A stretch of 46,499 nucleotides of DNA from contig JAFGPC010000088.1 in assembly GCA_016926155.1 (NCBI GenBank), forward strand, positions 1-46,499, given 5' to 3'. The translations under genes were made by a program, and so were the position numbers. The stretch comes from Sedimentisphaerales bacterium (lineage in GTDB: Bacteria > Planctomycetota > Phycisphaerae > Sedimentisphaerales > Anaerohalosphaeraceae). Under the pieces are notes generated by a model that saw only the letters and a list, made by a program, of their open reading frames with translations, did no database searches and had not been told where the DNA came from. Of the stretch, positions 40,426 through 45,983 are shown in pieces (the first letter of the stretch is position 1; each line of letters opens with the position of its first letter).

Positions 40426-41796
40426 CTACAGGGTCTCGGCAGTGTCATCCTTTGGCGCGTCGACCGAATCAAACACTCCTTCCAGCTTGATATAGACATG
40501 ATCCAGACCCGTCCCGTCGATCTTTCGCCGCATGAGGGAATAGATCACAGTACTCGCACTAAAATAAAAACTGATTACAAAAGAAGCAAGCAATCCAATT
40601 ACAAACAATACTGTGATCCGCACCACAACCGCGGATACCATTTCGGTCCAGCCTATGGGGGCCGGACCGCTGCTCAGAAAATTGTAGAAGGAAGGCTGCG
40701 GCCAGATCCGATTCAACTTACTTAAGGATTGGGGTTCACCAACTACCCCTAAATAGACCATTCCATACGTAATAATCAGCAGAAGGTACAATAGAAATCG
40801 AGCCACAAGGTACGATATTGTACCACACAATCCGGCAATTAAGGTATAAAACAACATCCACCAGGGCTGTGAAAATACATATCGAAGAGATCGGCTAACA
40901 GCATCAAATCCATCCGATCCTTCACAGGCGATGACCGGCAACATCAAACTGCCGCCGGCCGTCGTGCCGACCAACATCAAAACACACAGTACCCCAAAAA
41001 ATAAAGCCAAACCCAAGCCCAGGCCCAGCAGCAATTCGCCGGCTTTGGGAATGTTTAATAACAACCCCAGAAGATAAATCATGAAGGCAAAAAATAACAA
41101 TGTCAATGCCGACAGAACCGGGCCGGAAATCAGACTGCCAAATCGACAGCCGCTGAAATCAAGGACCTCAATCAGACCGGGCTTTTCATGACGCGAATGT
41201 TGCAAAGCCACACTTCGACAAATGGCTCCTCCAAGAAAACAAAACGTAACGGCCCATATAGAGAAAAAAAACAGACTATACAGTGTGTGGAATCGGATCG
41301 CCCAGAATATCGCGAGAATGCACATCCACAGATTACCCCAAACATTGGATAGACGGGTAAGGATACCTCCTCGCCCAGGCGCCAGCAGAGAAAAGGTCGC
41401 CTCATTAAACCGCGCGGCCCCAAACGCCCAAAGAGTCGTAAAGACTCCCTGTCGGCTTACATGTTCGGATTCGTCTCTTCGGCTGTCTATAAAATATCGG
41501 AGTAAACGACGATCTGCAACAAACGCATCCAGTTCCGTATGATGCTCGGTCCCGTTAAAATCAGACAATTGAAGTTTGGCAGGATATCGGGTATCAATAA
41601 CAACGCTTTGTGAAACCAGATCCAACAACGTCCCCGTCAATGAAACAATTAAGACCGCCGTAAGTGACAAAAGCAATCGGCTGGGGGCCGCGGCCAGACG
41701 ACAGGTGCGCAACAGCCGTGCGAAGGCCATATTGTCCCAAAGCGTCTGGATTTGTTCTTCCAGGGTCATTCTGTTTCTATCCGACAAACTATGCAT
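40426..41796 (-). CDS. Multi-pass membrane protein of unknown function
   Basis: 456 residues from ATG 41796 or 447 from ATG 41769 (GGATAG upstream of the latter; neither site is strong). About six or seven membrane helices: LLLSLTAVLIVSLTGTLLDLV, WMCILAIFWAIRFHTLYSLFFF, LSALTLLFFAFMIYLLGLLL, LGLGLALFFGVLCVLMLVG, YLVARFLLYLLLIITYGMVYLG and VVRITVLFVIGLLASFVISFYFSAS. An extracytoplasmic loop of about 80 residues follows helix one. The C-terminal ~35 residues are soluble (YSLMRRKIDGTGLDHVYIKLEG). I recognise no named family. It is probably in an operon with the CapD-like gene 23 bases downstream, hinting at an envelope or glycan role, but that is inference only. Confidence 0.75.
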   Translation of the reverse strand: MHSLSDRNRMTLEEQIQTLWDNMAFARLLRTCRLAAAPSRLLLSLTAVLIVSLTGTLLDLVSQSVVIDTRYPAKLQLSDFNGTEHHTELDAFVADRRLLRYFIDSRRDESEHVSRQGVFTTLWAFGAARFNEATFSLLAPGRGGILTRLSNVWGNLWMCILAIFWAIRFHTLYSLFFFSIWAVTFCFLGGAICRSVALQHSRHEKPGLIEVLDFSGCRFGSLISGPVLSALTLLFFAFMIYLLGLLLNIPKAGELLLGLGLGLALFFGVLCVLMLVGTTAGGSLMLPVIACEGSDGFDAVSRSLRYVFSQPWWMLFYTLIAGLCGTISYLVARFLLYLLLIITYGMVYLGVVGEPQSLSKLNRIWPQPSFYNFLSSGPAPIGWTEMVSAVVVRITVLFVIGLLASFVISFYFSASTVIYSLMRRKIDGTGLDHVYIKLEGVFDSVDAPKDDTAETL

Positions 41797-41810
41797 TTGG
41801 CATATGCCAA
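41797..41810. repeat. 14-bp perfect palindrome at the membrane-protein start
   Basis: TTGGCATATGCCAA is a perfect inverted repeat directly abutting ATG 41796. If translation starts at 41796 it covers the ribosome site; if at 41769 it lies in the leader or promoter. It may be an operator or a chance palindrome. Confidence 0.35.
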
Positions 41811-41867
41811 GCCGAATATATTATCGGCCAATGAGGAAAGACCTTCCAGCAAAAACACCGGCGGCTT

Positions 41868-42092
41868 TTATTGTATGAAGGTATTTTCTGACTGTCCCGA
41901 GATTGTCGGATCCGATGGCGTTGAGAGGATCCGATAATCACTATCCAGCCAGGCATTTAAATCAACCAAACGACAACGTTGTGAACAAAAAGGGAAAAAT
42001 CCGCCCTGATCTTCCGGAGAGAGGGAATCAGGGGAATCGACCGACCGATTAACGTCCTTACCGCATATCGGACATTTTTCTTTATTGTGCAT
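41868..42092 (-). CDS. yacG: YacG-type zinc-finger protein (DNA gyrase inhibitor family)
   Basis: 74 residues from ATG 42092, with GAGAAAG close upstream; the frame is open to 42128, but the extension resembles leader sequence. The conserved zinc site is complete: CPICGKDV and FCSQRCRLVDLNAWLDSDYRI, i.e. CxxC then CxxxC followed by the family's RLxDLxxWL. In E. coli YacG binds gyrase B and inhibits it; whether this role extends to planctomycetes is not known. In many bacteria yacG adjoins coaE, but here the two are 17 kb apart. It follows the DksA-like gene on the same strand, with a terminator between. Confidence 0.85.
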   Translation of the reverse strand: MHNKEKCPICGKDVNRSVDSPDSLSPEDQGGFFPFCSQRCRLVDLNAWLDSDYRILSTPSDPTISGQSENTFIQ

Positions 42093-42129
42093 ATCTTTCT
42101 CTGTCACTGACGTCAAAAGAAATATCATT

Positions 42130-42161
42130 AAAAAAAGCCCGTCTTCATAGAAAGGCCGGGC
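42130..42161 (-). terminator. Intrinsic terminator after the DksA-like gene
   Basis: Stem GCCCG/CGGGC (42137-42141 with 42157-42161), extended by further pairs after one mismatch, followed on the minus strand by seven T residues (42136-42130). It sits 24 bases after the DksA-like stop and before yacG. Confidence 0.65.
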
Positions 42162-42184
42162 CGGATATTCCTATCATATTGTGA

Positions 42185-43042
42185 TTAATCACTTTCGTCG
42201 TCATCGTCTATAAAGTCAAATCCGTCATCCTCCTCTTCAACTGGTTCCTCTTCTTCCTCCTCCTCCTCTTCTTCCTCTTCTTCTTCGTGTTCTTCCTCGT
42301 TGTCGTGTTCGGGTCCCTCTTCCTCAATATCTCCGGTATGGATAAACTCTAGATCCTCATCATACTCCTCGTCGTCTTCCTCATCGCTGTGCCATTTCAG
42401 ATAACCGGGCGCCTTTTCCCCTTCCATCACAATACCCTGTTCCACCATACGGGCATAGTCCAGACAATAACGAGCCCATGGAATCGCCTCCAGACGGGCT
42501 TTGCCGATCTGTTGTCCGGTACCTTCACAAACTCCATAGGTCCCGGCATCAATACGCTGCAAGGCAACATGGATCTCAAGGAGGATTTTCCGTTCGCTGC
42601 TCATTAAGCCCAAGGCGAATTCCTGCTCGAAATTATCGGTCCCGATATCGGCCATGTGGATCGGCATACTGGACAGATCTCCAGCCGCATCCAGACGAGA
42701 GGTTTTTAAAGCTTCGGATTCAATTGAACTGACATCCCCGATCAACTCAATGCGTTTTTCAAGCAAGAGTTGACGAAAATGTTCGATCTCTGCCGGAGTT
42801 AATGGATTGTGGACTGTTTTGCATGAACGGCGTTTAACATTGCTCTTTTGCGCCGGGTTGTGTACCGTTTTTTTTCTGGTGCTCTTCTTGTTGCTCATCT
42901 TCTTTTTTGTCCGCTTGACGGTCTTCTTGGTCTTCTTGGTTTTTTTGACCGTCGTTTTTTTAGCAGCTTTTTTGGTAGTCTTTTTAGCTGCCTTTTTTAC
43001 GGTTTTTCTCTTCTTAGTTGTTTTTTTCGTCTTTTTTGCCAC
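42185..43042 (-). CDS. DksA/TraR-like protein with histone-H1-like N-terminus and polyacidic tail
   Basis: 285 residues starting at GTG 43042 (AAAGGG 8-9 bases upstream). Residues 1-75 are Lys/Thr/Arg-rich (KKTTKKAAKKTTVKK), like histone H1 tails. Residues ~80-200 form the DksA/TraR-type region: LTPAEIEHFRQLLLEKRIELIGDV, a coiled-coil half, then IDAGTYGVCEGTGQQIGKARLEAIPWARYCLDYAR. The normal CxxC...CxxC zinc finger keeps only one Cys of each pair (CEGT, CLDY), so zinc binding is doubtful. Residues ~215-285 are almost entirely Glu/Asp. It may bind RNA polymerase or DNA through the basic arm while the acidic tail tunes binding. Strand slippage in the two repeats could vary its length. Confidence 0.88.
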   Translation of the reverse strand: MAKKTKKTTKKRKTVKKAAKKTTKKAAKKTTVKKTKKTKKTVKRTKKKMSNKKSTRKKTVHNPAQKSNVKRRSCKTVHNPLTPAEIEHFRQLLLEKRIELIGDVSSIESEALKTSRLDAAGDLSSMPIHMADIGTDNFEQEFALGLMSSERKILLEIHVALQRIDAGTYGVCEGTGQQIGKARLEAIPWARYCLDYARMVEQGIVMEGEKAPGYLKWHSDEEDDEEYDEDLEFIHTGDIEEEGPEHDNEEEHEEEEEEEEEEEEEEPVEEEDDGFDFIDDDDESD

Positions 43043-43088
43043 TACTTGTGCCCTTTTTGGTCTCTGTCATGACCCACTGGAGTTCCAG

Positions 43089-43100
43089 CACCGTACGGTG
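43089..43100. repeat. 12-bp palindrome in the leader of the DksA-like gene
   Basis: CACCGTACGGTG is a perfect inverted repeat lying about 12-23 bases after the predicted transcript start (promoter at 43119-43146) and 47 bases before GTG 43042. It could be a repressor site or a short RNA hairpin. Confidence 0.4.
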
Positions 43101-43118
43101 GTACCAATAGAATCGTGT

Positions 43119-43146
43119 AGTATACCGTTTTCGGCAAAATTGCAAA
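43119..43146 (-). promoter_or_regulatory. Promoter of the DksA-like gene
   Basis: On the minus strand TTTGCA (43146-43141), 16-bp spacer, TATACT (43124-43119, 5 of 6). The leader to GTG 43042 would be about 70 bases. A hairpin (TTTTCGGC 43128-43135 with GCCGAAAA 43147-43154) overlaps it. Confidence 0.4.
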
Positions 43147-43228
43147 GCCGAAAAAGCCCGTTTGTTAAAAAAAGTCACTGGGGCGCGAATTACACATAAG
43201 TCATTTCAATACAAAGACTTACATCGTC

Positions 43229-44026
43229 TCACCTGCCCGTATCGCAGTTCGGTCGGCCGACCGGAAGGAGGAAATTGACATCTCCAATGTGACCTTGCAG
43301 AATCTTGACGTGAAAGAAACGTTCCATGGTTGCAGCCGTCAGGATATTCCGAACAGGGCCGATTGTATATTGTCCGGGGGGGCCCAGAAGGAGCATTTCT
43401 TCGCAATACTGACCGGCCAGGTTAAGATTGTGCGTAATCGCAATAATTGTGATCCCACGCTGCTTCTGGAGGCCTTTAAGCAGGTCAAAAACAGCCACCT
43501 GGTGTCGCATGTCCAGAAAGCTGGTTGGTTCATCTAGAAGAAGGATCGGCGTGTCCTGCGCAAGGGCCCGGGCGATATAGACCCGCTGGCGCTCGCCTCC
43601 GCTGAGCTGGGTGAGTCTGCGTGAGGCGAATTGTGTGGTTTCAGTCGCTTCCATCGCCGCCTGTACGGCCTGCTGATCCGCCTCGCTCTCGAATCCCATC
43701 GGTCCAAAGTGACAGGTCCGCCCCATTATGATTGTTTCATATACCGAATAGGCAAAGCTGGGCAATACATCCTGTCGAACGACGGCAATCTTATGGGCGA
43801 GCCGGCGCGGATTGTATCGGCTCATCGGTTCCCCGTCTATGGTAATACCGCCTTTGGTCGGCTTTAACATCCCGTTCAACAACCGAAGTAGCGTGGTTTT
43901 ACCGGCCCCGTTGGGCCCGGCAATCGCAAGGAATCGGCCCGGAGCAATTCGAAATGTTATATCGCGAAGCACTTCCTGCTGCGGATACCGGAACGAGACA
44001 TTTTTGACTTCGATCATATCCATCAA
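43229..44026 (-). CDS. ABC importer ATPase, BtuD/FecE/HmuV type
   Basis: 265 residues. Walker A GPNGAGKTT, Q-loop VVRQDVLP, signature LSGGERQR, Walker B ILLLDEP and the switch His in AITHNLNLA are all intact. The subfamily (iron-siderophore, heme or cobalamin import) follows from the sequence after the Q-loop (FAYSVYETIIMGR) and from the partner permease. The gene ends with an unusual tail (LPVGRPNCDTGR). It overlaps the permease stop by four bases (ATGA), so translation is coupled. It powers uptake of a metal chelate, with cobalamin favoured by the binding protein but not proven. Confidence 0.93.
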   Translation of the reverse strand: MMDMIEVKNVSFRYPQQEVLRDITFRIAPGRFLAIAGPNGAGKTTLLRLLNGMLKPTKGGITIDGEPMSRYNPRRLAHKIAVVRQDVLPSFAYSVYETIIMGRTCHFGPMGFESEADQQAVQAAMEATETTQFASRRLTQLSGGERQRVYIARALAQDTPILLLDEPTSFLDMRHQVAVFDLLKGLQKQRGITIIAITHNLNLAGQYCEEMLLLGPPGQYTIGPVRNILTAATMERFFHVKILQGHIGDVNFLLPVGRPNCDTGR

Positions 44027-45063
44027 TCACCCCAATGGCCGCGACGGGCGTATCGAACCAGAAGAACCAAAAAAAACGGACCGCCGACCAGAGCCGTCAC
44101 CACACCGACGGGAAGCTCGGCCGGAGCGACAACAATCCGTGCGAATGTATCGGAAATCATCAGAAAGATTCCGCCGAAAATTGCACTCAGCGGTATAAGC
44201 CGACGGTGGTCGGCCCCTAGCAAAAGACGGACCGCGTGCGGCACGATCAGGCCGACAAAACCGATCAATCCGCTGAAGCTGACCGCCACAGCCGTAATCA
44301 GCCCGGCAACAATAAAAGCAATCCGCTGTACGATAACAACAGATACTCCGACACTGTGCGCATCGCTGTCTCCGAAGCTGATGATGTTCAGTCTGGCCCC
44401 GAGCAGGAACAAGACAAAGACGCCGGCCATTGTCAGCCCCAGCGTCAACCAGATGACGCGCACATCCTCCAGTGCCGCGGCGTTGAGGTTGCCCATCAGC
44501 CAGAAGATGGTTGTCTGCAGATGTTCGCTGCCTGCGACCGAGATCAGGAACATGATGACTGCACTGAGAAAGGCATTGACGACCACCCCGGCCAGCAGCA
44601 GCGAGGTCATATTGCCCCGTCCGGCAGCCCTGCCGATCATCCAGACCAGCCAGATTGCCGCCATGGCTCCTCCAAAGGCGAATAAGGCCACCGGAGAGCC
44701 CCACCACACGGCCCACTGGATTCCGCTCATCACAGCGATAATCGCTCCCAGACCGGCCCCGCTGGAAACGCCCAGAATATACGGATCGGCCAACGGATTT
44801 CGCAGCAAAGCCTGAAACACCGCCCCCGAAGCGGCAAGAGCCAGACCGATCGCCGACGCCAGAAGCACGCGGGGCAGACGAATGCGAACAATGATCTCAT
44901 AATCGAGATTGGGCTTTTCGGTCGTTCCGGGGCCTTTCAACACATCCCGGAGCGAAACCTCCTGCGTACCCACCAGGCAACACAACACCATCACCCCAAC
45001 CAGAAGGACAACACCCAGGGCCACCTGCAGGATCAGCTTTGTTGGGGTCAGCGGTGTTGTCAC
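44023..45063 (-). CDS. ABC importer permease, BtuC/FecCD family
   Basis: About 346 residues if translation begins at GTG 45063, which overlaps the binding-protein stop as GTGA and has AAAGGGGA about 10 bases upstream; GTG 45096 (357 residues, 37-base overlap) is the alternative. Ten membrane helices are expected. Typical segments: RIRLPRVLLASAIGLALAASGAVFQALLRNPLADPYILGVSSGAGLGAI, MGNLNAAALEDVRVIW, LGVSVVIVQRIAF-type region and FSGLIGFVGLIVPHAVRLLLGADHRRLIPLSAIFGG, all hallmarks of the FecCD family. It forms the transmembrane channel dimer with the ATPase below. Confidence 0.93.
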   Translation of the reverse strand: MTTPLTPTKLILQVALGVVLLVGVMVLCCLVGTQEVSLRDVLKGPGTTEKPNLDYEIIVRIRLPRVLLASAIGLALAASGAVFQALLRNPLADPYILGVSSGAGLGAIIAVMSGIQWAVWWGSPVALFAFGGAMAAIWLVWMIGRAAGRGNMTSLLLAGVVVNAFLSAVIMFLISVAGSEHLQTTIFWLMGNLNAAALEDVRVIWLTLGLTMAGVFVLFLLGARLNIISFGDSDAHSVGVSVVIVQRIAFIVAGLITAVAVSFSGLIGFVGLIVPHAVRLLLGADHRRLIPLSAIFGGIFLMISDTFARIVVAPAELPVGVVTALVGGPFFLVLLVRYARRGHWGD

Positions 45064-45983
45064 GGCTCGGTTTTCCCCTTTTTTTTCGACAGACACGAGG
45101 CCACAACCTGCACCCCTTCGGCCAGACGAGGTCCCAGCCGGCTGACTAGATCTCCGTCAATCACATAAACCCGCCCATCCCGCACGGCGGGCAACGCCGG
45201 ATACTGCTTCCAATATTGTTCCGCATCGCCCTGCTGCTTTACCAGATCGACCTTGGTCATAGCCGGCTCAAGGATCACATCGGCCCCGGTGGCGATCAGC
45301 TCCTCCATCCCAATCGGCGGATACACCTGGATCGTATCGCTGATGGAATTTTGCCCCCCCGCCAGTCGAATGATCTCATCGGCAAAGGTCTTCGTCCCGG
45401 CAACCCGCAGCGGCTGACGCTGCACCACCCACAGCACCTTAGGCACGGTAGCCTGTCGAGCCGCCTGCATCGCCGCAAGCTCCCCTCGAATCGTTCCAAT
45501 CAACGCAGTAGCTTTGTCGGATGTCTCTGTCACAGCCCCAATCTGCTCTATAGCTGCATATAACTCCTCGACATGGTCGATATTGACCGTCAGGCATCGG
45601 CAGCCAACCTGTTTGAGCCGCTCGGCGAACTGCTTCTGCTGCGGAAAGGCCAGCGTCACCACCAGGTCCGGCCGGGCCGCGATTACCGCCTCCAGATTGG
45701 GCTGCCAGAACGTGCCGACCTTCGGTTTGTCGACGGCTTCGACAGGCCAGTCGCTATCCTGGGTGACCGCCACGACCTTGTCCCCCAATCCCAAGGCGAA
45801 CAGGATCTCGGTCAGGTTCGGCGCCAGAGAGACAATCCGCCCGACCTCGTCGGGCGCATCCGGAGTGTCCTTCGGGGCACAGCCCCAAAGCCCAAGGAGC
45901 AATCCTGATGTAAGAATGCATTTCCACACAAGCAGGAATTCCGTACTACGACCGACCGACAGAGATCGTTTTGCACGATGCAA
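45060..45983 (-). CDS. ABC importer substrate-binding lipoprotein, BtuF-like
   Basis: 307 residues from TTG 45983; the start is uncertain because no good ribosome site is seen (GTG 45929 is an alternative). The signal ILTSGLLLGLWGC ends in a lipobox. The two-lobed type III fold shows VGRIVSLAPNLTEILFALGLGDKVVAVTQDSDWP, KVGTFWQPNLEAVIAARPDLVV, a long linking helix, and VRDGRVYVIDGDLVSRLGPRLAEGVQ. These resemble cobalamin-binding BtuF and related helical-backbone proteins; heme or siderophore are other options. No cobalamin riboswitch was found upstream. A candidate promoter lies at 46045-46073. It heads a three-gene operon with overlapping ends. Confidence 0.9.
   Translation of the reverse strand: MHRAKRSLSVGRSTEFLLVWKCILTSGLLLGLWGCAPKDTPDAPDEVGRIVSLAPNLTEILFALGLGDKVVAVTQDSDWPVEAVDKPKVGTFWQPNLEAVIAARPDLVVTLAFPQQKQFAERLKQVGCRCLTVNIDHVEELYAAIEQIGAVTETSDKATALIGTIRGELAAMQAARQATVPKVLWVVQRQPLRVAGTKTFADEIIRLAGGQNSISDTIQVYPPIGMEELIATGADVILEPAMTKVDLVKQQGDAEQYWKQYPALPAVRDGRVYVIDGDLVSRLGPRLAEGVQVVASCLSKKKGKTEP

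Follow-up and report, generated by a model that had tools for sequence, protein, structure and literature searches.

The window, by which we mean the whole stretch of 46,499 nucleotides analysed here, carries on its minus strand a gene for a DksA-like protein, flanked by a yacG-like gene and by three genes of an ABC importer (Table 1). The coordinates, strand and frame of this gene are exact, from the GTG start at 43042 to the stop at 42185, and an in-frame stop stands 9 codons 5' of the start. Its product matches the DksA/TraR family profile PF01258 with 39.7 bits (cut-off 24.9). All six of its NCBIfam matches stay below the cut-off, the best being that to the YteA family (TIGR02890; 91.6 against 134.4 bits), and the two DksA equivalogs are not reached either, with 55.2 of the required 115.5 bits for TIGR02420 and 58.9 of 105 for NF033459. 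The protein is a member of the DksA/TraR superfamily without the zinc finger that gives PF01258 its name. It is also the only DksA-family protein found in its own genome (95.9% complete), being the sole PF01258 match at E <= 0.001, and the core used as a query returned nothing there except itself.

Table 1. Features of the DksA-like gene and its neighbours in the window.
Feature	Position	Strand	Remarks
DksA-like gene	42185..43042	-	285 aa, GTG start; open reading frame and PF01258 match
N-terminal Lys-rich H1-like arm	42803..43042	-	residues 1-80, net +37
DksA/TraR core	42437..42802	-	residues 81-202; coiled-coil helices 83-119 and 130-166, then globular domain
Coiled-coil tip HMADIGTDNFEQEF	42617..42658	-	residues 129-142; conserved motif
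Former zinc site C172-x2-T175-x17-C193-x2-Y196	42455..42529	-	from alignment with relatives
Polyacidic tail	42188..42436	-	residues 203-285, net -46
yacG-like gene	41868..42128	-	downstream of the DksA-like gene; PF03884, 52.4 bits
FecCD/BtuCDF-type ABC importer genes	43229-44026, 44023-45096, 45060-45983 (span 43229..45983)	-	upstream of the DksA-like gene

The original prediction, namely that a basic arm, a DksA/TraR core and a Glu/Asp tail are joined in one protein, is borne out by the sequence in all three parts, and the charge separation that it pointed to is real (arm +37 against tail -46). The arm contains 32 Lys and 5 Arg with no Asp or Glu at all; the tail contains 48 Asp/Glu, 46 of them within the 66 residues 220-285, and a run of 14 Glu. 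With -8 for the core, the protein as a whole is net acidic (-17). Since the Lys codons of the arm (AAA 17, AAG 15) and the Glu codons of the tail (GAA 17, GAG 16) are both mixed, the charged ends are not a simple nucleotide repeat. No second copy of the arm was found in the window's own genome, by a search in which low-complexity matches may be missed.

Scanning of positions 41700-43400 for promoter-like and terminator-like signals gave seven promoter-like sites, one of which (43146-43119, minus strand, 9 of 12) lies just 5' of the DksA-like gene. Among the importer genes, the middle one is FecCD (PF01032), and the other two were named from reading the sequence. The surroundings are shared by the window's own group of 16 loci (L032-L047), where a yacG match follows the DksA-like gene in 14 and an importer ATPase gene is matched in 11, the upstream room for the latter being missing at some loci. 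The yacG-like neighbour, of a gyrase inhibitor family, has kept its own four Cys.

In the AlphaFold2 model, computed from an alignment of 48 of 71 proteins, the core forms a coiled coil followed by a globular end, which is the fold of DksA. Confidence is high here (pLDDT blocks mostly 89-98, falling to 59-77 round the tip) and low elsewhere, with blocks of 40-70 in the arm and 48-65 in the tail from residue 211 on, mostly below 60 in both; from this low confidence we read the arm and the tail as probably disordered. The best structural match is DksA2 of Pseudomonas aeruginosa (4ijj; Z 13.0, rmsd 2.8, 120 residues aligned, 30% identity), followed by structures of E. coli DksA with and without RNA polymerase (Z 11.5-12.6, with 12.6 to 1tjl) and by C. 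trachomatis DksA (Z 10.6), although Z values up to about 13 may be generic for helical models. The kinship with DksA is nevertheless sure, given the PF01258 match and the sequence matches to solved structures. The other fold matches (Z <= 9.6), mostly further coiled coils, were set aside.

The tip of the coiled coil, which in DksA reads DxxDxA, is HMADIG in the window protein; when aligned via DksA2, D74 is kept, D71 has become His and A76 has become Gly, the MAFFT alignment placing the tip one column off relative to this DksA2-guided one. Among rows lacking the full set of four Cys, 108 of 113 carry the motif H.AD.[GA][TS][DE].[FY][ED]Q, as do 19 of the 21 four-Cys rows; the tip, presumed to face RNA polymerase, has thus been kept within the lineage.

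The zinc site has fared differently. At the four ligand positions the window protein has C172, T175, C193 and Y196, so that each CxxC pair is without one Cys, precisely as had been predicted, and the C4 zinc-binding site of PF01258 is replaced by C-T-C-Y. The comparison of Cys positions in planctomycete homologues, which the prediction had called for, was made on 135 distinct homologues from 150 loci, counting the protein of the window, chosen by their similarity to the window core and therefore leaning to its kin. In this sample C-T-C-Y is the commonest pattern (68), followed by four Cys (21), C-L-S-Y (15) and C-T-S-Y (10); the remaining 21 have rarer patterns, one of them being a fragment without the site. 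The rows that are complete and without four Cys number 110, again with the window's protein among them. Besides the ligand positions, only two Cys/His columns are filled in at least 20% of these rows, H129 at the tip (108) and H88 (44). Both lie a long way from the site in the sequence, and hence no replacement ligand set is visible among the 110 rows at this threshold, in agreement with the predicted loss of the classic DksA zinc site.

A zinc site might still persist if it were shared by two subunits or completed by other residues, as would fit the presence of C172 in all 110 rows and of Cys at the C193 position in 75 of them. We hold this to be very improbable: C193 gives way to Ser in 30 of the other 35 rows and to Thr, Gly or Arg in the remaining 5, the surroundings of the site have no Cys/His column that reaches 20% of rows, and the similarly patterned DksA2 is reported not to coordinate zinc. 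Indeed, according to the published accounts, P. aeruginosa DksA2 is a functional two-Cys DksA, made under zinc starvation alongside the four-Cys DksA1, and homologues of R. sphaeroides and S. meliloti are likewise named as lacking the C4 finger. DksA2 shares with the window protein the fold, the same two Cys and a Thr at the second ligand position (CQET / CIEA), and differs in having Ala at the fourth (C..T..C..A), where the window protein has Tyr, in being without the added arm and tail, and in being a second copy beside DksA1, whereas the window protein is the only copy found in its genome. C. trachomatis DksA (6ptg), which of all solved structures matches best by sequence (E 1.9e-16), likewise has an incomplete set of zinc Cys (CDVS / TVKS) and a similar tip (HQADQGTD), but its chain of 132 residues has neither a long arm nor an acidic tail. 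By sequence and predicted fold, the core thus appears to fit the zinc-independent DksA2 type.

We reconstructed the history of the site on a tree of 131 rows and 120 columns, from which the four ligand columns, three of the 135 rows (core below 100 aa) and the distant protein L149 were excluded and in which 54 of 127 forks are open. Twenty four-Cys rows form one side of the tree (SH-aLRT 85), and a single change accounts for the loss of the four-Cys site. After this loss the third ligand position changed 12 times, and the fourth requires two changes because of a small paralogue group reading C-x-C-C. On the tree, therefore, the zinc-site change is a shared one with a single origin and not the decay of one gene; its direction, which would be loss and not gain of zinc, depends on the rooting on the four-Cys rows. 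The description of the finger as half lost accordingly holds in that two Cys are gone, and has to be amended in that the change belongs to a whole group and that zinc-independent precedents have been published. As for the C-x-C-C paralogues (L124, L130, L133 and L148), which lie inside the Cys-poor clade, their fourth Cys was either regained or retained.

The neighbourhood speaks to the same history. For lspA, 69 of 70 loci gave enough room to look downstream. A match starts less than 1 kb away in 20 of the 21 four-Cys loci and in 22 of the 29 Cys-poor loci not belonging to L032-L047; the window's own group (16 loci) and the three C-L-S-Y loci counted have none. Because this neighbour is common to the four-Cys genes and to many of the Cys-poor ones, it was probably one and the same gene that shed its zinc ligands while staying at its locus.

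It is mostly as a partner of ppGpp that DksA is known. Here it occurs in a lineage that seldom has the ppGpp synthetase family and in which the residues contacting ppGpp have not been retained. The RelA/SpoT family (PF04607) has no match in the window's own genome (95.9% complete), and is matched in only 11 of 198 genomes of the class, two of them (G007 and G012) belonging to the window's own family, and in 11 of 149 in the phylum sample. This rarity agrees with published work that describes PVC bacteria as having no Rel. At the positions of E. coli DksA residues K98, R129 and K139 the window protein has E, I and A, so that K98 and R129 of ppGpp site 2 are missing. We take K139 to be a further ppGpp contact of E. 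coli DksA. K98 and R129 have been published as such contacts. The window's residues are typical of its kin, the K98 position being E in 82 and the K139 position A in 87 of the 95 rows of the C2T group, counted after the three rows with a core below 100 aa had been dropped. Since the four-Cys planctomycete homologues lack the contacts as well (Ala at the K139 position in 20 of 21, never Arg at the R129 position), their loss is not tied to that of zinc. On the side of the polymerase, the N-terminus of omega reads MIEELKST and differs from the motif at that end of E. coli omega. The trigger-loop region has 181 residues between the two conserved motifs on either side of its insertion. This insertion of about 180 residues is SI3-like, an SI3-type insertion having been described as a companion of DksA. 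A DksA-family protein is present in 58 of the 59 genomes of the window's order, its own included. Together with the rare synthetases and the lost contacts, this near-universal presence makes a role of DksA without ppGpp testable.

As for the cleavage factors GreA/GreB, there is no match in the window's own genome, and they look patchy, with a match in 31 of the 59 genomes of the order and none in 28, including the window's. For this patchiness we rejected a link between their absence and the window protein.

The charged ends vary among the relatives. We scored an arm as present at a net charge of at least +15, arm lengths being measured from the first possible start codon and hence perhaps overlong, and a tail at -15 or below. 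By this measure neither end is present in any of the 21 four-Cys homologues, while the 90 complete Cys-poor proteins (partial, four-Cys, C-L-S-Y paralogue and the four C-x-C-C rows excluded) have an arm in 63, a tail in 31, both in 28 and neither in 24. The C-L-S-Y paralogue group, of which there is no such copy in the window's own genome, has no arm and a tail in 15 of its 16 complete rows. Each end changed state 12 times on the tree. The arm and the tail, which come and go separately, do not depend on each other.

From the charge separation, the original prediction had suggested self-inhibition or a condensate-like behaviour with nucleic acids. Arm and tail net charge give a raw Spearman rho of -0.27 (p 0.009) over the 90 complete rows, which are related to one another; only six independent pairs are available on starred branches, on average 5.2 of them without a tail difference, so that power is low. 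No coupling of charge across relatives is shown at this power, and, the two ends varying separately, the comparison of relatives does not support self-inhibition.

Against its nearest relative (L003), the window protein has 86% identity in the core but only 34% in the arm and 29% in the tail, with net charges of +37 and +39 for the two arms and -46 and -25 for the two tails. That charge is kept while sequence is not is what one would expect of disordered regions selected for charge, though drift of both ends under weak constraint may produce the same picture. Poor conservation and the 12 state changes each also mean that the ends may be dispensable. One could go further and regard them as disordered additions under loose constraint and with no particular function, attached to an ordinary zinc-free DksA, as the frequent changes, the lack of a detected coupling and the low identity between near relatives might indicate. 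In our view this is rather unlikely, for the charge has been kept in L003 while the sequence has not, and extensions of this kind are confined to proteins other than the 21 four-Cys homologues.

We consider it probable, from the sequence and the predicted fold, that the protein is a zinc-free, ppGpp-independent factor acting in the secondary channel of RNA polymerase, held to DNA by its arm and tuned in its binding by its tail. In such a factor the coiled coil would enter the secondary channel and modulate initiation, and the core would act regardless of zinc, ppGpp or thiol state. By binding DNA, the Lys-rich arm would keep the factor close both to the nucleoid and to transcribing polymerase, and the acidic tail would tune binding by competing with nucleic acid, whether for the arm or for basic patches on the polymerase. 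Affinity for DNA and for RNA polymerase we infer from the same two sources.

Two known systems invite other readings. Streptomyces DdbA (SCO2075) consists of an H1-like arm joined to a DksA-like domain, and we know of no acidic tail or zinc loss in it. The likeness lies in the architecture only, both proteins joining an H1-like arm at the N-terminus, Lys-rich in the window protein, to a DksA-like core. According to a review, DdbA modulates RNA polymerase together with ppGpp and also organises DNA; the window genome, by contrast, has no RelA/SpoT-family match. By analogy, the window protein could be mainly nucleoid-associated, the arm condensing DNA and the DksA core being secondary, and both the double role given to DdbA in the review and the 63 armed proteins among the 90 speak for this. 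We find it doubtful, however, because the 24 proteins without a strong arm or tail still conserve the core and the tip, so that the polymerase looks like the chief target, and because the whole protein is net acidic.

The second system is the delta subunit of B. subtilis, whose C-terminal region (residues 91-173) is described as displacing nucleic acids from RNA polymerase. Delta is also described as cooperating with HelD, the coiled coil of which enters the secondary channel. Like the tail of the window protein (83 residues, net -46, low AlphaFold2 confidence), this region is a disordered polyanion of 83 residues (net -47); we treat the likeness as an analogy and claim no homology. The folded domain of delta is described as resembling sigma region 1.1. 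It is conceivable, though unlikely, that the window protein acts as a one-protein polymerase recycler, in which the DksA core anchors on the polymerase and a delta-like tail strips off DNA and RNA, and the tailed C-L-S-Y paralogues without arms illustrate that a tail can stand without an arm. Delta, however, is reported to anchor at the rim of the main channel, while DksA sits in the secondary channel, and the length of the tail ranges widely among relatives, from 85 residues to a few. Bolder still would be the idea, a long shot in our opinion, that an alarmone-poor lineage has rebuilt DksA into a zinc-free channel core with a DNA-bound H1-like arm and a delta-like stripping tail; if true, one protein would join nucleoid organisation, initiation control and polymerase recycling.

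Zinc-free DksA, the H1-DksA fusion of DdbA and Rel-free PVC bacteria are each already known singly, and it is their combination that appears to be new; in a search of one literature library, over titles and the beginnings of abstracts, this combination was not reported among the matches listed. With the secondary-channel reading preferred here, the locus also opens to test why zinc became dispensable and what charged, putatively disordered ends add to a secondary-channel factor.

Several relatives deserve a mention of their own. In the nearest relative, the genome (G008) encodes in addition L149, a distant DksA/TraR-like protein with four Cys and a length of 116 aa (E 4e-6, 36% identity), which is without arm or tail. 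Paralogues reading C-L-S-Y or nearly so, and free of an arm, are found at L072, L073, L075, L129, L131, L132, L134-L139, L141, L143-L145 and L147. Finally, a clade of five proteins (L083, L094, L095, L098 and L099) has strongly basic arms (+44 to +56) and no acidic tail; four of these proteins retain a single zinc Cys.
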